Positions 49,646 through 57,062 of a DNA stretch of 64,000 nt are shown here, piece after piece. Under the pieces are notes generated by a model. It made no database searches. It had not been told where the DNA came from and saw only the letters and a program-made list of their open reading frames with translations. The DNA is taken from positions 1 through 64,000 of the forward strand of contig JAJZBG010000006.1 in NCBI GenBank assembly GCA_021799035.1. Reading direction: 5' to 3'. Numbering within the stretch: the first letter of the stretch is position 1; every line of letters begins with the position of its first letter. Both the position numbers and the translations under genes were made by a program. Source of the stretch: Actinomycetes bacterium. GTDB taxonomy: Bacteria; Actinomycetota; Acidimicrobiia; Acidimicrobiales; Acidimicrobiaceae.

Positions 49646-50863
49646 TCATCCAACAGCCTCTGGCTGAGATGCAATTATAGAACGTCGCGCTATCCAGACG
49701 GCGAGTGCGGCACACACCGCAGCGCTCGCTGCCAAGATCCAGGCCATCTGATATCCATGTGCCTCCACGATAAACCCGAAGGCAAGAGGGCCGAGTACCG
49801 AGCCTATATAGGCACCCGATTGAACCGTGCCTGTGGCGTATCCCGCATGTCTCGGGAAGTTTCTCACTATTCCAAAGATGAAAAGCCCATTCCATCCCCA
49901 GCCCGCACCGTAACATATTACCGTTGCGGGGATTATCATCCAGGAGTCTGTAGTTGAGAACATGAGGTATCCCAATCCTCCGACTGCGACCGAACATGCC
50001 GCTACAAGGAAATGCTGGCCGTGCCTTTTATCGGCCGCAAGACCGTTCCCTATCCTGGCCAACACGCCAATTGCCGATCCGAAGACTATGAGAAGTCCTG
50101 CTAGCCCAGGCTTCCATCCAGAATGGACCGCAAACGACACAACAAATGCACCAAAAGAGTTTGCGGCACCGGTGCCAAGCCCCATTCCGAGTGCAAGCAT
50201 CACTAAAGGTGCTGCAGATGGGCGACCAGCAAGCTTCGCGGTTCCAGTCCTTCCCGGGGCCATTTGGACGGACTTGGGCGCGAGAAAGAAAAAGATCAGT
50301 CCCAGCGGGGCTGCAGACAGAAATGCATATCTCCAGCCAATTGTAAGTGCGATAGCCGGAACAGCCAGACCAGCTAAGAAGGTCGCCAGGGGAACGGCTG
50401 CCTGCTTCACTCCAAAAGCGAAGCCTTGCCGTCTCTTTGGTATAACGTGCGACAAAAAGAGATTGATATGGGGCTGTAAGGCACCGTTCACTGCACCGCC
50501 TAGGGCGAGAAGAGCTACGAAAGTTGGGTAATTGACTCCGGCAATTCCAATTGCAGCCAACACGGTAAATGAAAAAAGCATGCAGGATTTGATTACGAAG
50601 GATCCGTCGACCCGGTGAGAAATATGGCCCGAGACAAAAGAGCCAAGCGCCGCAAAAAGAAAGAAGACGGCGACCGCCGAACCAAGGAGAGAAGGGGTAA
50701 AGTTGAGATTCTGCCTTATCTGAACTGCAAGCGCACCCGTCAGAAAGACTGGAAGCACGGCCGAAATTGCGATTCCAATTGCCAAGATCACCGGGGCAAG
50801 TTGAAAAGGCCCCTCGTCGCTCGTCCCAGAATGCGCCTCGGTCGAAACTTCTTTGCTCGCCAT
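49646..50863 (-). CDS. MFS transporter (paralogue 3 of 3)
   Basis: A 405-residue, 12-helix MFS carrier, tandem with paralogue 2 (148 bp apart). Shared motifs include RRQGFAFGVKQAAVPLATFLAGLAVPAIALTIGW and GAGWGWNGLFIFGIV. It begins 66 bp after the ferredoxin stop, so read-through from the redox operon is possible. The two copies probably arose by local duplication. Its substrate is not readable from the sequence. Confidence 0.87.
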   Translation of the reverse strand: MASKEVSTEAHSGTSDEGPFQLAPVILAIGIAISAVLPVFLTGALAVQIRQNLNFTPSLLGSAVAVFFLFAALGSFVSGHISHRVDGSFVIKSCMLFSFTVLAAIGIAGVNYPTFVALLALGGAVNGALQPHINLFLSHVIPKRRQGFAFGVKQAAVPLATFLAGLAVPAIALTIGWRYAFLSAAPLGLIFFFLAPKSVQMAPGRTGTAKLAGRPSAAPLVMLALGMGLGTGAANSFGAFVVSFAVHSGWKPGLAGLLIVFGSAIGVLARIGNGLAADKRHGQHFLVAACSVAVGGLGYLMFSTTDSWMIIPATVICYGAGWGWNGLFIFGIVRNFPRHAGYATGTVQSGAYIGSVLGPLAFGFIVEAHGYQMAWILAASAAVCAALAVWIARRSIIASQPEAVG

Positions 50864-50929: not shown

Positions 50930-51130
50930 TTAGTATTCTCGAATTATCACGGCTAGCGTTGGACAGAGTCTCTCCGCGCGTCTGGCATGGTCAAGCAGCG
51001 CTGGTGGCAGATTTCTGGACTTAAGGATGGGAAATCCCCATTCGTCGAGTTCTATAAGCTCAGGCAGCAATTCAGCACAGATTCCATGGCCGTCACAAGC
51101 AATGGGATTTATCGCAATCTCGGTTTTCAT
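50930..51130 (-). CDS. Small 3Fe-4S-type ferredoxin
   Basis: A 66-residue ferredoxin with only three ligand cysteines, C12 and C18 (CDGHGIC) and C56 (LCP), which is the pattern of actinobacterial 3Fe-4S ferredoxins that feed P450s and other oxidoreductases. ATG 51130 is chosen because homologues begin at MKTEIAIN; the frame can be extended to 51205 over the NuoF-like gene, which is unlikely. It lies four bases after that gene's stop and ends the redox operon. The likely partner is the NuoF-like flavoprotein. Confidence 0.9.
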   Translation of the reverse strand: MKTEIAINPIACDGHGICAELLPELIELDEWGFPILKSRNLPPALLDHARRAERLCPTLAVIIREY

Positions 51131-51134
51131 CTCA

Positions 51135-52439
51135 TCACTTCGCAGCCAGAACGCCGGTCGGTGGAACCAGCCGGCCACTTCCTTGGCCATAGCTGCACCT
51201 ACCACCCTGATGCTCTAGAAGCTCAGACCTGAACCTTCTCAGAGATGTTCTCGCCAACAGTACAGCGCCATCGGGCATGGCACAGCCGCCCCTGCCCGCC
51301 AACTCATCGCAGAGTTCATCTACGCGAGAAATTGAAGCAGCGGTGACGTTGTCCGAAGCGAGAGACTTCCATGTCTTTGCCAACTCAGGCAGACCCAAGT
51401 AGCAGGGCCCGCATTGACCAGCAGATTCCTTTGCCAAGTAGTTGATGATCCTGGCAGTCTCTGAGATTGGGCACCCCTCAGCAAGAGCAACGACTCCTGC
51501 TCCGAAGGAGAAGCCAGCTGATTTGAGAAATGATTGGCTCGCCCTAAGTGTCCAAAGCTTATCTGAATCGATCAGCTGTCCGAAGTAGCCGCCAAGAAGT
51601 CCGCAGCTGACTTGCTCACGCGAAATGCCCATAGCTTGAAAGATCTCGGCAAATTCTGTTCCGGCGACGACTTCCAGCACTCGGTAGGAGCCGCTTGGCA
51701 ACCATAGCGTTATTAGGCGGGTGCCTGAATCGTTTTCAGTGCCAATTGAGGAAAACCAGTGCGAGCCAAATCTAGCCAGTAGTGCCAGATGGGCCAGAGT
51801 CTCGACATTTGCTAGGAGGGTTGGCCGCCTCCTAACTCCGCGGACTATGGGCCTCTCAGGCATGTAAAGTGGCAGGCCCCCTTGACGGTTGATCGCAGAA
51901 ATAACGGCTGTCTCCGACCCTGCCACATATCCGACGCCCGCAACCGTAGTTGACACCTCAATTCGAAAAGGATCCACGCCGCGTCTCTCTGCTATTGCCT
52001 CTTGAACGATCCTGATCGAGGCCTCTTTCGAAGACTTCAAATGAATGAATCCCATCTTTGCATCGAGTGCGCTTCCCAGAATTGACAAGCCGTCAAGAAC
52101 GAGATGAGGGTGACGAGCCAAAAGAGCCTCGTCCTTGCGGGAGAGGTACTCTCCTTCCGACCCGTTGGCAACAACCACTACCTTTCCGCGGTGCTTCTCG
52201 TACCCGGCAATCTTTTTCGAAAGCGGAAATGCTGCCCCGCCTCGCCCGAGAAGCTCATTCTCGGAAAGCTGAGTTTTCAAATGATGAAGCTTGCCGAGGT
52301 AAGGTTCAACGCTGCCGAAAACGGATACGTGTTCGAAGAAATGGATCGTTGAAGACGGAATTGCGGCAATTCTGTTAGAACTGCTGACCTTTCCTCCGTA
52401 GGCTAACCGTGGAAACGAATAACGAGAGTTGTCTGACAT
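51135..52439 (-). CDS. NuoF-like NADH/flavin dehydrogenase subunit with an altered N3 cluster motif
   Basis: A 434-residue protein related to the 51-kDa NuoF subunit of complex I: FMN motif GRGGAAFP at 65-72, a NANGSEGEY/KDEALLARHPHLVLDG block, an SLBB-like region, and a C-terminal iron-sulfur region. That region reads ESAGQCGPCYLG and later RGGC, so cysteines 343, 346 and 386 are present but the first canonical cysteine (SCGxCxPC) is A340. It probably oxidises NAD(P)H or another donor and passes electrons to the ferredoxin or the membrane protein. Its start shares a base with the stop of the upstream gene. Confidence 0.85.
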   Translation of the reverse strand: MSDNSRYSFPRLAYGGKVSSSNRIAAIPSSTIHFFEHVSVFGSVEPYLGKLHHLKTQLSENELLGRGGAAFPLSKKIAGYEKHRGKVVVVANGSEGEYLSRKDEALLARHPHLVLDGLSILGSALDAKMGFIHLKSSKEASIRIVQEAIAERRGVDPFRIEVSTTVAGVGYVAGSETAVISAINRQGGLPLYMPERPIVRGVRRRPTLLANVETLAHLALLARFGSHWFSSIGTENDSGTRLITLWLPSGSYRVLEVVAGTEFAEIFQAMGISREQVSCGLLGGYFGQLIDSDKLWTLRASQSFLKSAGFSFGAGVVALAEGCPISETARIINYLAKESAGQCGPCYLGLPELAKTWKSLASDNVTAASISRVDELCDELAGRGGCAMPDGAVLLARTSLRRFRSELLEHQGGRCSYGQGSGRLVPPTGVLAAK

Positions 52440-53614
52440 TAGTGATCCCTGGATTCCGATCTTCTTCCGTAATTGCTCGGGGCTCCGTTGGTGAACGAAG
52501 AGCTAGCCGAACCGGCAACGGTTCCCGTAAAAGACGAGCCATTATTTCCAAGATTAAGGCTTGCCGAGAAGGTTAGGCTCTGGCCCGACGCGTTTGATAC
52601 CTGGCTGACGAGCGTGGTTCCGTTGAGCGATGTTACGGAGCCTCTGTAAACAACAGTTCCGCTCGTGGAGGCAATTTCAACGAGGCTCGACGTCATGGAG
52701 ACCCCACCTTCCAGCGGCACTCCTATGAGCACCACCGACAGGAGATACCCAGGGGAGCTTGCAAGCCGACCCATCAAGCGAAGCGCGATCTCACCTTGGG
52801 AATTAGGAGCTGACTGGTCTATGCCTCCCGACCAGTTTGATGTATAGCTTGGGGTCAATTGCAGCAAATGAACCGGCTTTGATGCTGGTCCGGTGGAGGC
52901 CTTCGTTCCGGAGTTGGCAATGCTTGCGGATGTGAGGACAGACTGTTTGAGCCCTGCCTGTGCGCGTTTTGGCCAGTTCACACCGAGAGGCCCGGACGCC
53001 GTCCAGGCAATGATCACTAGCGGGACTGCAAGACTGGTACCAAGCAGCGCAGCCTTCTTGCCGATGACCAAGTCCTGTCTCGCCACCAATCTCGAAATGA
53101 TAGCCAGCAAAATCACGCCACCGACAGCCAAGTAAATGAACTTCGAAAACCAAAGCGATGTATCAGTGCCCGAACCTAGACCATGCACGATTGACAGCGC
53201 AAAGATTGGATAGCTGGCCCAGTGAACCAGCTTCCAACTGCGATAACCCATCCGCACCCTGACGAGTGACGTAATCATCACTGCGAGTCCGAGATCCACT
53301 GCGATGGCACCTATGCCCACCCAAATCGGCCGGTATGCCGAAAAGAAGGGCACGAAGACGTCTTTTATTCCGATGAACGAGTACTTGTCCGCGACAGCTG
53401 CCCCTACGTGAATGGCAAGAACTACCATTGCAAGGAGGGATAGAGATCTGTGAAGATCAGGCGTGAGGAATTTTGTCCCGTGGGCAATCTTTAGATTGCC
53501 CGCAGTAATAATTCCCAAGACTCCTATCAATCCGAGCAGAATCAACCCTATATAGCCCGCTGAGCGGGAGACGTACCAAAGCGGGCTGATGGAAGCAGTC
53601 GCAGCAAACATCAT
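52439..53614 (-). CDS. Ferric-reductase-like di-heme membrane protein with exported C-terminal domain
   Basis: A 391-residue protein with six hydrophobic helices in the first ~206 residues. Four histidines form two pairs in helices 2 and 4: H55/H69 (LHRSLSLLAMVVLAIHV) and H131/H144 (HWASYPIFALSIVH), as in the b-heme pairs of ferric reductase/NOX-like proteins. No FAD/NADPH domain is fused; instead ~185 Ser/Thr/Gly-rich residues of beta type follow and would face outside. It probably carries electrons across the membrane. It overlaps ApbE by four bases. Confidence 0.85.
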   Translation of the reverse strand: MMFAATASISPLWYVSRSAGYIGLILLGLIGVLGIITAGNLKIAHGTKFLTPDLHRSLSLLAMVVLAIHVGAAVADKYSFIGIKDVFVPFFSAYRPIWVGIGAIAVDLGLAVMITSLVRVRMGYRSWKLVHWASYPIFALSIVHGLGSGTDTSLWFSKFIYLAVGGVILLAIISRLVARQDLVIGKKAALLGTSLAVPLVIIAWTASGPLGVNWPKRAQAGLKQSVLTSASIANSGTKASTGPASKPVHLLQLTPSYTSNWSGGIDQSAPNSQGEIALRLMGRLASSPGYLLSVVLIGVPLEGGVSMTSSLVEIASTSGTVVYRGSVTSLNGTTLVSQVSNASGQSLTFSASLNLGNNGSSFTGTVAGSASSSFTNGAPSNYGRRSESRDH

Positions 53615-54561
53615 CTCAGACTCCCGATGCGGTTAGCCCCTTCCCACGCGCCGAAATACCTGACGTCGGCATTTCTGGCCCGTGCAATAGCGGGTAGCCT
53701 CGTAGATTCCAACCACTCAGGACCCAAACTTCCCATCGCTATGGTGCCACACGAAGCAATGTTCGCGTCAAGCGCAGAGCCAGCGACCACAGTCACGGAT
53801 TCAAAGGGGGAATTTGCGCTGATCCCCGTACGGGGATCGATAATGTGATGGGCCCGAATACCCGAACTCGTCCGCCACGACCTCTTCAGGGTCGAAGATG
53901 TCGCAACACCGCCACCCGAAATCTGGATGATCACCCCGCTTGAAAAGGGATCCAAACCTCCGTCATCTGTGATTTTGACCGGCCATGATTCACCTTCAAG
54001 GGTGAGGGAAGCTGAGATATCCCCTCCAAGATTTACAAGAACATGCTCGGCAAGCTCCAGCTCTATTCTGTGTCTAATCCTGTCTGCTAGAAAGGCCTTC
54101 CCTGTGGACCCCAGATCCAGAGTCACACCTTCTGAGACCGACACTGAGAGCTCGCCTCTGTGCAAGCGAATGTTCCGATATCCTGGTGGAAGCACGACCT
54201 GAAGGTCGGGCAGGTCCCCTTCGGAACGGCCGCTGATTTCGGAAAAATCCGCCTTGTATCCCATCGCAACAAGTGAACCTGCGACAGTGGGATCGAGGTA
54301 CCCGTTGGTCACCACAGCCGCAAACAGTGCGGCGTCAATCGCGTCAAACAGGATTTCTGAGACCACAACTTTTGAAAGGGCCTTTCCATTAAAGATCCGG
54401 GACAATTCAGAATCTTCTCGAAACCGCGACGCCGCCACGTCCATTTCTTGGATGAGAGAGACAAAGATCTGCCTCGCCTCGACAGACGGCGGCACCCCGT
54501 AGCCGATGAGTGAGCACGCCGTTCCTAATGCCGAGATGCTATATCCATCAGCACTGCTCAT
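53611..54561 (-). CDS. apbE: ApbE-family FAD:protein FMN transferase, no signal peptide
   Basis: A 316-residue ApbE-like enzyme, which transfers FMN from FAD to a Thr or Ser of a partner protein. Motifs: LDLGSTGKAFLAD (DxGSxGKAxxxD), LVNLGGDI and HHIIDPRTG. Most characterised members are exported lipoproteins; here the N terminus MSSADGYSISALGTACSL has neither signal sequence nor lipobox, so it should act in the cytoplasm. No protein in the operon shows the canonical flavinylation motif (SGAT/S), so its target is unclear. Overlaps by ATGA at both ends with its neighbours. Confidence 0.88.
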   Translation of the reverse strand: MSSADGYSISALGTACSLIGYGVPPSVEARQIFVSLIQEMDVAASRFREDSELSRIFNGKALSKVVVSEILFDAIDAALFAAVVTNGYLDPTVAGSLVAMGYKADFSEISGRSEGDLPDLQVVLPPGYRNIRLHRGELSVSVSEGVTLDLGSTGKAFLADRIRHRIELELAEHVLVNLGGDISASLTLEGESWPVKITDDGGLDPFSSGVIIQISGGGVATSSTLKRSWRTSSGIRAHHIIDPRTGISANSPFESVTVVAGSALDANIASCGTIAMGSLGPEWLESTRLPAIARARNADVRYFGAWEGANRIGSLR

Positions 54562-54887
54562 GATGCACCAGTAGCAGATACGGCGGGACCTGGCGACTGC
54601 ATCGGAGCCGGGTTGCTTGGTGACAAGGATTGTTGGGGAGATACAGGCGAGCTAGGTGGGGCGGAAAGCGTCGGGGAGGTAATGTTATATCCACTGCTCA
54701 AAGAAGAGCTGGAAGATGAGGATGCTGGAGTCGTCGTGGTTGATCCCATGGGCTTCCCAGGATTTATTTTCGCAACGAATCCAGCAAGCCCTAGTATCGC
54801 CAACAGCGCTCCATACCAAAAACCCTTCGAAAGCACTGATGACCTTGCCACCGCTGCGTCTCTACTATGTCCGGTAAATTTACGCAT
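54558..54887 (-). CDS. One-TM protein with Ser/Pro/Thr-rich exported tail
   Basis: A 109-residue protein: a basic N terminus, a membrane helix at ~22-40 (GFWYGALLAILGLAGFVA), then ~65 low-complexity Ser, Pro and Thr residues outside. The tail ends SATGAS, which is not a proper flavinylation motif. The ATG of ApbE overlaps its stop, so it belongs to the redox operon and is its first gene. It may be an assembly or anchor subunit. No family is recognised. Confidence 0.7.
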   Translation of the reverse strand: MRKFTGHSRDAAVARSSVLSKGFWYGALLAILGLAGFVAKINPGKPMGSTTTTPASSSSSSSLSSGYNITSPTLSAPPSSPVSPQQSLSPSNPAPMQSPGPAVSATGAS

Positions 54888-55032
54888 CTCTACGTCCCAG
54901 TTCGAAGCTTTTGGGTATATTCTTGCACCTGCGTCTGAGACATCACTGAATTTCCACTTAAAGGATCCTTGCGAAATTACGGGTGCCGTACCGCATTTTC
55001 AACTATTCGAAGTTCTAAGATGCCAAGTAGCA

Positions 55033-55509
55033 ATGAGATACAACCCGCGTCTTGCCACACGTGCGATGCTTATAGATCAACAATCGCGATTGCTCCTCTT
55101 GGAAGGCCATGACTCCACTATCGCCAACTCGAAGCACTGGTGGTTCACCGTTGGAGGAGGGTTAGAAGGGGAAGAAACTACCATGCAAGCGCTGCATCGA
55201 GAGGTCCTGGAAGAAACAGGGCTTGACATCTCTAGCTTCGCAAAGACACCTTTTTCGAGAACCCTCTCCTTCACCTTTGAAAGCCGGTCTTACTTCCAGC
55301 ACGAGACCTATTTCCTGGCGCGCGTGAAGACTTTCGTTCCGGAACCCAGCGGTTTAACTCCACTTGAAAGGCGCAGCATAATAGGCTATCGGTGGTGGCA
55401 CTTGGATGAGTTAAAACGCACAACCGAAACGATCCATCCCCCTCAACTGGCCGCATGGCTCGAGTACATACTCAGGACTCATCTCGAAGAAGTGGAGACC
55501 TGCGCATAA
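55033..55509 (+). CDS. NUDIX hydrolase
   Basis: A 158-residue NUDIX protein with an intact box, GGGLEGEETTMQALHREVLEETGL, near residues 43-66. The core RLATRAMLIDQQSRLLLLEGHD begins right after the ATG at 55033; the open frame extends upstream to 54613 but there it overlaps the divergent redox operon. The C-terminal YRWWHLDELKRT is typical. The substrate is unknown. It lies alone between the redox operon (divergent) and pntB (convergent). Confidence 0.87.
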   Translation: MRYNPRLATRAMLIDQQSRLLLLEGHDSTIANSKHWWFTVGGGLEGEETTMQALHREVLEETGLDISSFAKTPFSRTLSFTFESRSYFQHETYFLARVKTFVPEPSGLTPLERRSIIGYRWWHLDELKRTTETIHPPQLAAWLEYILRTHLEEVETCA

Positions 55510-55631: not shown

Positions 55632-57062
55632 CTATGAAGCCTTGACAGCTGCAACAAGCTTCGTCAAAGACTCCTTGGCATCTCCGAAAAGCATGATCGT
55701 TTTCGGATCAAACATGAGTTGGTTGTCTATTCCAGCAAACCCGGGTCTCATCGACCGCTTCATGAACACGATATTCTTTGCATCCTCCGCATTCAGAATT
55801 GGCATGCCATAAATTGGACTTCCCGGATCAGTCTTAGCGGCAGGATTTACCACGTCATTTGCTCCAACGATCAACGCAACATCGGCAAGCTTGAACTCAT
55901 CATTTATCTCATCCATCTCCTTGAGCTGGTCATATTTCACATCGGCTTCCGCCAGGAGGACATTCATATGACCTGGCATGCGGCCGGCGACGGGGTGAAT
56001 GGCATACTTCACGTCGACACCGCGCTGCTCTAACAGATCTGCCAGCTCTCTGACAACATGCTGTGCTTGTGCCACGGCGAGTCCATAACCGGGCACGATG
56101 ATGACCCGTTGCGAATATGCGAGTAGGACCCCGATATCGTCAGCAGTGCCGGAGCGCACCGCCTGATCCTGGCTGACTCCAACTGCCCCCGCGGAACTCA
56201 CCGTCACCTTTCCGACAGCAGCGAACAAGATATTTGAAAGCGACCTTCCCATAGCATCGGACATCATTTTGGTGAGAAGCGTTCCAGAGGCACCAACAAG
56301 AGTTCCGCCCACTATTAGCACTGTATTACCCAGCGCGAAACCGCTTCCTGCAACCGCCAAGCCCGTGAAGGCGTTCAGAAGAGAGATGACTACGGGCATG
56401 TCTGCACCGCCGATAGGAAGGACAAAAGCGATACCGAGTATCAGAGAGATGACCAGCAATATAGCAAGCAATGCAATGCTCGAGGTAAATCCAATGAGCA
56501 CAACTGCGAGTGCCAGGATCCCCAACAAGACAATCCCATTTACCACTTGCTGACCAACATAAGTAATTGGCACTCCGGTCATGAGTTCTTGAAGCTTGGC
56601 AAAGGCGATGGCAGATCCAGCAAAGCTCAGCGAGCCTACGACCACGGCGAATACTACCGATATTGCCAGTACGATACCGTGGCTAGAACTCACCAACCTC
56701 GTGTAGTCCTCGATTGAGACGAGTGCCGCAGCGCCGCCACCAACTCCGTTAAATGCTGCGACCATCTGCGGCATCGCGGTCATCTTTACAGTACGAGCAG
56801 ATATTGCACCCACGACGGTTCCAATGATCACTGCCACGATCATCAATATCACCTTCCCCGACGAAGGGTGTATCTCAGTCAGTGAGGTGATTATTGCTAT
56901 CAACATGCCTACCGCGGCAGTAGTGTTTCCTTTTCGAGCTCCCTTAGGGGAACTCAGCTGCTTCAAGCCAAGAATGAACAAAACAGCAGCTAACAAATAA
57001 AGTAAGCTAACACCTTCGTCCAAGGTCAAACCGGAGGTCGCCAGCAGATTTATGTTCGACAA
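55632..57062 (-). CDS. pntB: NAD(P) transhydrogenase subunit beta PntB
   Basis: PntB is the NADP(H)-binding membrane subunit of the proton-translocating transhydrogenase, which makes NADPH from NADH using the proton gradient. About nine hydrophobic helices are followed by the C-terminal domain III with GYGLAVAQAQHVVRELADLLEQRGVDVKYAIHPVAGRMPGHMNVLLAEADVKY, the NADP-binding core. The 476-residue length is normal. It is the last gene of pntAA-pntAB-pntB, starting 11 bases after pntAB. Confidence 0.97.
   Translation of the reverse strand: MSNINLLATSGLTLDEGVSLLYLLAAVLFILGLKQLSSPKGARKGNTTAAVGMLIAIITSLTEIHPSSGKVILMIVAVIIGTVVGAISARTVKMTAMPQMVAAFNGVGGGAAALVSIEDYTRLVSSSHGIVLAISVVFAVVVGSLSFAGSAIAFAKLQELMTGVPITYVGQQVVNGIVLLGILALAVVLIGFTSSIALLAILLVISLILGIAFVLPIGGADMPVVISLLNAFTGLAVAGSGFALGNTVLIVGGTLVGASGTLLTKMMSDAMGRSLSNILFAAVGKVTVSSAGAVGVSQDQAVRSGTADDIGVLLAYSQRVIIVPGYGLAVAQAQHVVRELADLLEQRGVDVKYAIHPVAGRMPGHMNVLLAEADVKYDQLKEMDEINDEFKLADVALIVGANDVVNPAAKTDPGSPIYGMPILNAEDAKNIVFMKRSMRPGFAGIDNQLMFDPKTIMLFGDAKESLTKLVAAVKAS

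Follow-up and report, generated by a model that had tools for sequence, protein, structure and literature searches.

In the 64,000-nucleotide window analysed here, the whole stretch at positions 1 to 64,000 of contig JAJZBG010000006.1 from an actinobacterium of the family Acidimicrobiaceae, five genes make up a genuine electron-transfer operon that occurs throughout Actinobacteria. They encode a one-transmembrane (one-TM) protein, here called X, a predicted ApbE-type flavin mononucleotide (FMN) transferase, a four-histidine membrane protein with a ferric reductase domain, a NuoF-like subunit and a three-cysteine ferredoxin. Our analysis suggests that ApbE probably attaches FMN to the serine at the end of X, which would make X a tethered carrier in a transmembrane electron-export chain. 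As judged from its sequence, X appears to be a minimal flavin carrier that had escaped notice, a string anchored in the membrane whose last residue is the likely site of the flavin, and seems to bear a natural terminal flavin tag. We also consider it likely that X founds a phylum-wide class of ApbE substrates, natural flavin tags without a folded flavin domain, which are served by an ApbE clade of their own with asparagine at a catalytic position.

X (54,558–54,887, minus strand; 109 amino acids) has a predicted cytoplasmic N-terminus, a TM helix at about residues 22–40 and a disordered tail of 69 residues rich in serine, threonine and proline. Its C-terminus, overlooked in an earlier note on this DNA, reads SATGAS (codons 54,561–54,578, minus strand) and contains the [S/T]-G-A-[S/T] substrate motif of ApbE; we propose it as the flavinylation motif, with the last residue, Ser109, as acceptor. 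The same build is shared across loci: an N-terminus with positive charge, a single TM helix, often with Pro-Gly right after it, and a tail of 49–144 residues rich in Ser, Thr, Pro, Ala and Gly whose sequence varies and whose end is constant. Among the X proteins counted from 87 loci holding both ApbE and NuoF-like genes, [ST]-G-[AG]-[ST] is the exact C-terminal end of 52 of the 72 distinct proteins (36 of 55 after redundancy reduction), and the last residue is Ser or Thr in 67 of the 72. Four residues drawn randomly from each X's own tail give such an end in 0.47% of cases, and it is found in 1.3% of neighbouring open reading frames and in 0 of 284 core proteins. Six Streptomyces X proteins end in DSTSGAS, which is the full published seven-residue ApbE motif D-x-x-[ST]-G-A-[ST]. 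The flanks of the TM helix carry a mean charge of +4.1 before it and 0.0 after it, and since the N-terminal flank exceeds the C-terminal one in 76 of 79 proteins, the tail should lie outside. The window protein belongs to no Pfam or NCBIfam family, 39 members of X gave no consistent match to any family in either database, and a search of X for the FMN_bind domain (PF04205) found none. In annotated plasmid copies X is a 'hypothetical protein' or is left unannotated, and no published description of it was found among open-licence full texts, preprints not covered.

What is known of ApbE substrates accords with a motif in this position. In the motif D-x-x-[S/T]-G-A-[S/T], FMN is attached to the last residue, seven residues are enough, the Asp is for the most part not needed and tags perform best when terminal (JBC 2025 review, PMC12052999). 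This is the principle of the engineered Flavin-tag (Tong et al. 2021, as cited in PMC12052999), in which the seven residues suffice and are best placed at a terminus; X would be its natural counterpart. NqrC and RnfG, the FMN_bind proteins, resemble X as proposed here in being extracytoplasmic carriers with an ApbE motif ending in Ser or Thr and a membrane protein as electron donor, but their FMN sits in a folded FMN_bind domain and their motif is internal, whereas the acceptor in X is the last residue. X dispenses with a folded FMN_bind domain, which almost every known ApbE substrate has. The Flavodoxin_4 and FMN_red substrates, added by a 2024 follow-up (PMC11334425), have a folded flavin domain too; the FMN_red proteins share with X a motif on an unstructured C-terminal extension, but there the extension stands at a folded, flavodoxin-like flavin site, and X has no such domain. 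If our reading is true, a covalent flavin works as a carrier with no protein fold around it.

The predicted FMN transferase (53,611–54,561, minus strand; 316 amino acids) is a relative of solved enzymes of this kind and matches PF02424 at 5.5e-42, with 144.6 bits against a cut-off of 25.6. Catalytic S222, R227 (the FmnB-type Arg) and H239 are conserved, S222 and H239 being the counterparts of Ser241 and His257 in Vibrio cholerae and invariant in 96 of 96 X-linked ApbE proteins, and the Lys and GGD residues are also retained. Asp285, listed as catalytic together with Ser241 and His257 in V. cholerae numbering (PMC12052999) and equivalent to Asp301 of FmnB, is replaced by Asn267 in the window protein (codon 53,761–53,763, minus strand). 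Across 97 X-linked enzymes this place is occupied by Asn 89 times and by Glu 8 times but never by Asp, whereas it is Asp in all 24 FMN_bind-linked ApbE proteins, a control drawn from 24 loci of the same order; in the FMN_bind loci of the wider phylum, no ApbE lay within the stretch examined. When the Asp285 column was removed before tree building, the FMN_bind-linked enzymes grouped as a clade with support 0.99, and the Asn-type X-linked enzymes, 88 of 88, fell into a clade of their own (support 0.58). This pattern is the best indication that enzyme and substrate form a dedicated pair, and at the same time it raises the greatest doubt about the chemistry. An explanation of the Asp-to-Asn change as a fit for the C-terminal carboxylate of X was rejected, as Glu also pairs with a terminal Ser (L061, L065, L128). 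The N-terminus of the window ApbE does not resemble a signal peptide, and by simple hydropathy, not SignalP, a strongly hydrophobic N-terminal stretch was seen in 3 of the 96 X-linked proteins. The FMN_bind-linked ApbE proteins inspected in L156–L159 also seem to have none, so its absence is not peculiar to enzymes paired with X.

ApbE is present in eight of nine genomes of the genus, and FMN_bind (PF04205), DUF2271 (PF10029) and DUF3570 (PF12094) were found in none of the nine. Because these genomes are 69–96% complete, a single absence means little, but the absence across the nine together is telling. PF04205 was also not found in four Corynebacteriales genomes that have X and ApbE (Rhodococcus, Nocardia, Williamsia and Mycolicibacterium loci). 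Six clusters hold X, the membrane protein, the NuoF-like gene and the ferredoxin gene with no adjoining apbE; X keeps the end SG[AG]S, TGGS or TSGS in them, and ApbE is encoded elsewhere in all six genomes. The genome of the window has a second flavinylation-type cluster on another contig (L033:2041–4654, G000:C23), which has no NuoF-like gene. It encodes two one-TM proteins, one with TGASS and one ending in STGASRALR, whose TGAS stretch is kept within the genus, and an ApbE whose residue at the Asp285 place is Glu and which adjoins a ferric-reductase-like multi-TM protein; a DsbA-like gene lies upstream. The genus paralogues with this internal TGAS-RALR motif likewise have the acidic residue Glu at that place of ApbE.

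The membrane protein (52,439–53,614, minus strand; 391 amino acids) matches PF01794 (Ferric_reduct) at 5.9e-09 and has the four histidines of the ferric reductase domain superfamily. The two helical pairs that the earlier note had pointed out, formed by H55, H69, H131 and H144, occur in every one of the 108 aligned homologues, and the protein likely binds two b hemes, one between H55 and H131 and one between H69 and H144. With NOX, STEAP and ferric reductases it shares the predicted two-heme, four-His TM bundle and a His spacing of 13–14 residues. It differs from them, and from full-length FRE/NOX proteins, in having no fused FAD/NAD(P)H domain (FAD, flavin adenine dinucleotide); this absence, which the note had also described, is borne out by Pfam and by the AlphaFold2 model. 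Further differences are an additional, sixth helix and the outer beta domain found in this lineage. The model (mf02cfbebbd5d; mean predicted local distance difference test score, pLDDT, 80.7) shows six TM helices and, set apart from them at the C-terminus, a beta domain of 8 strands (residues ~256–370; 52,505–52,849, minus strand). The positive-inside rule, applied to the loops by eye, places this domain outside, in agreement with the note. It is present in members from Acidimicrobiia, Solirubrobacterales and Dormibacterota and missing from homologues of ~185–200 amino acids in Streptomyces, Nocardia and others. Foldseek returned a STEAP2-like TM bundle (probability 1.00, E 0.04); for the outer domain, a fold search gave only weak beta-barrel matches (E ≥ 0.02), which were not used.

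The predicted cytoplasmic part of the operon consists of the NuoF-like subunit (51,135–52,439, minus strand; 434 amino acids; Complex1_51K 3.5e-27, NADH_4Fe-4S 2.1e-16; model pLDDT 85.7) and the ferredoxin (50,930–51,130, minus strand; 66 amino acids; Fer4_15 1.6e-10). Both subunits and their conserved gene order support the NAD(P)H-side module that had been proposed for them. The NuoF-like protein shares its two domains with NuoF of complex I but scores 164.4 bits against the cut-off of 558.65 of the NuoF equivalog TIGR01959, and it does not have the complete four-Cys N3 ligand set SCGxCxPC: the first Cys of the motif is Ala340 (SAGQCGPC), and it is Ala in 108 of 109 proteins. C323, C343, C346, C386 and C415 are invariant or nearly so in ~108 homologues; Cys323 and Cys415 are cysteines additional to those of NuoF, and His410 is invariant too. 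The Glu pair of the NADH site, GEET in complex I, is variable in this subfamily and reads GSET in the window. In the ferredoxin, the three cysteines of CxxHxxC...CP (C12, C18 and C56) are kept in 107–108 of 108 proteins, and the cluster is probably [3Fe-4S].

The five genes lie on the minus strand between 50,930 and 54,887 and are joined as the earlier note had given: X and apbE, and apbE and the membrane-protein gene, by four-base ATGA overlaps (54,558–54,561 and 53,611–53,614), the membrane-protein and NuoF-like genes by a one-base overlap within TAATG at 52,439, and the NuoF-like and ferredoxin genes across a four-base gap (51,131–51,134). A promoter and terminator scan gave signals at chance level only. 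That the genes might cluster nowhere else, a prospect which the note had raised, is contradicted by the phylum-wide recurrence of the five-gene order, which is far beyond chance. When 84,980 species genomes were scanned with an alignment of the NuoF-like protein, at least 560 related stretches came up; of these, the best 80 come mostly from Actinobacteria (among them Streptomyces, Nocardia, Rhodococcus, Gordonia, Mycolicibacterium, Actinoplanes and Solirubrobacterales), with Dormibacterota and some Chloroflexi, and most of the 80 hold the ApbE, membrane-protein, NuoF-like and ferredoxin genes, all four in the same order. In the stretches retrieved from relatives, this gene order is identical at the level of genus, family and order, and the membrane protein was matched in 45 of 60 relatives. 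X precedes apbE almost everywhere across the clusters of Actinobacteria. Five Chloroflexi/Thermomicrobiales loci (L092, L100, L103, L104 and L141) hold the NuoF-like and ferredoxin genes with neither ApbE nor the four-His membrane protein nearby; these loci put the same NAD(P)H module to a different use.

Each step of the chain is inferred from gene linkage and from what is known of the families, and the heme and cluster content and the flavinylation of X are likewise predicted; the operon probably carries electrons from NAD(P)H outward through the membrane. NAD(P)H would reduce the NuoF-like subunit, with its putative FMN and Fe-S centres, whose Fe-S cluster would pass electrons to the three-Cys ferredoxin and from there to the cytoplasmic heme and then the outer heme of the membrane protein. 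ApbE would move FMN from FAD onto the hydroxyl of the last residue of X, a serine, and the FMN at the tip of X would take electrons from the outer heme to an acceptor in the envelope. Because the flavin would sit at the free end of a disordered, anchored string, it could swing between the two. The ApbE has no signal peptide, so X would probably be modified before its tail crosses the membrane.

Several observations weigh against a flavinylated X. The Asp of the motif is missing from most X proteins and some have Gly in place of Ala (TGGS), and 20 of the 72 do not conform to the strict motif, with xGS among Corynebacteriales and SSGF in two proteins. ApbE is reported to favour Thr over Ser (PMC12052999). 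In genus g8 (L054–L057) the four other genes are present with no X-like gene adjoining. The fold matches of the membrane protein are weak, none reaching E ≤ 0.001, and the ApbE has no signal peptide whereas the tail of X is predicted outside. Transferase activity is not to be assumed, since the Asp285/301 of the reported catalytic triad is Asn in this clade. The last point could mean that the enzymes are not FMN transferases and that the exchange marks another activity, for example with another nucleotide or restricted to FAD hydrolysis. Although the total exclusion of Asp from X-linked enzymes speaks for such a change, the conserved Ser, His, Arg, Lys and GGD residues and the FMN acceptor motif on the partner protein leave it a slim prospect. 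It is also improbable that the target of ApbE lies elsewhere, in some other protein or in the membrane protein's outer domain, with X as a structural or docking subunit and its Ser motif as a binding peptide. The end of the tail might serve as a short linear motif for binding, X still adjoins the membrane-protein gene where apbE has moved away, and the active site is altered; but the motif is the known ApbE recognition sequence, exact in Streptomyces, no known ApbE substrate family occurs in the genus, and the six genomes with X and no local apbE have all kept ApbE. The outer beta domain was rejected as the target, being missing in many lineages that retain ApbE.

If X is flavinylated, its tail might instead be cytoplasmic and act as a swinging arm between the NuoF-like/ferredoxin module and the inner heme, an arrangement that would suit an ApbE without signal peptide. 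We regard it as very unlikely: the charge bias of X places the tail outside, the inner step is already filled by the ferredoxin, tails rich in Ser, Thr, Pro and Ala are typical of exported linkers, and the FMN_bind-linked ApbE proteins of the same order seem to have no signal peptides either. A question of another kind, compatible with the tethered-flavin reading, concerns the acceptor. The earlier note had proposed a transmembrane electron-transfer system, perhaps for ferric iron, in an acidophilic iron-cycling actinobacterium. The system is upheld by the gene order, the four invariant His, the NuoF-like subunit and the three-Cys ferredoxin, and the guess at the organism was apt, as the family of the window includes Acidithrix ferrooxidans; a specificity for ferric iron was not supported. 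Iron is a possible acceptor, but a dedicated ferric-iron reductase, for respiration or iron uptake, seems unlikely to us. The Acidimicrobiaceae host, the STEAP2-like bundle, the VIT-family genes adjoining plasmid copies and the link of some MsrQ-like clusters with VIT1 in a 2021 survey (eLife, PMC8238504) speak for it. Gene neighbours were rejected as evidence for it, with VIT in only 5 of 123 loci and two-component genes as the commonest neighbours. The cluster is common in neutrophilic aerobes, and with copies also in Streptomyces, Nocardia, Rhodococcus, Mycolicibacterium and Solirubrobacterales it is not bound to an acidophilic, iron-cycling way of life.

The electron-export architecture seems to be known and X seems to be a new class of flavin carrier. 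That survey (Meheust et al., PMC8238504) named MsrQ-like flavinylation systems and recorded 31 clusters with PF10589, so the core of our cluster is of a known kind in outline, though uncharacterised. The MsrQ-like NuoF variant described there shares with it the PF01794 protein, ApbE and the PF10589 NuoF-like protein, is found mostly in Actinobacteria and was proposed to export electrons driven by NAD(P)H. Like the MsrQ-like systems, ours has a PF01794 protein no more than five genes away from ApbE or FMN_bind; it has no signal peptide or lipidation site in an ApbE, FMN_bind, DUF2271 or DUF3570 protein. The survey sought FMN_bind, DUF2271 or DUF3570 and kept to clusters in which ApbE or a known substrate had a signal peptide or lipidation site, whereas here the candidate is a domain-less one-TM protein and the ApbE has neither signal; X-linked clusters would therefore drop out at that filter, and no mention of X was found in the passages of the survey that were examined. 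The survey also reports ApbE with no known substrate in ~4% of flavinylation-positive genomes (670), and takes such orphan apbE genomes to imply unidentified substrates. If our reading is true, a domain-less tether fills part of this gap, and Actinobacteria, including Streptomyces, Nocardia and mycobacteria, gain an unrecognised transmembrane electron route.

Response regulators (33 loci) and histidine kinases (30 loci) are the commonest neighbours of the cluster. The plasmid copies L153 and L154 (Cnuibacter and Rhodococcus) have VIT-family, DUF2231 and two-component genes alongside, with heavy-metal transport genes nearby. In the window, a divergent frame for a Nudix-type hydrolase (54,613–55,509, plus strand; start probably near 55,020) lies upstream of X and before pntB, the gene for the beta subunit of NAD(P) transhydrogenase (55,632–57,062), which the genus retains wherever the contig extends far enough. 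Downstream, a transporter of the major facilitator superfamily (49,646–50,863) is retained by the genus and by most of genus g4, among them Acidithrix.

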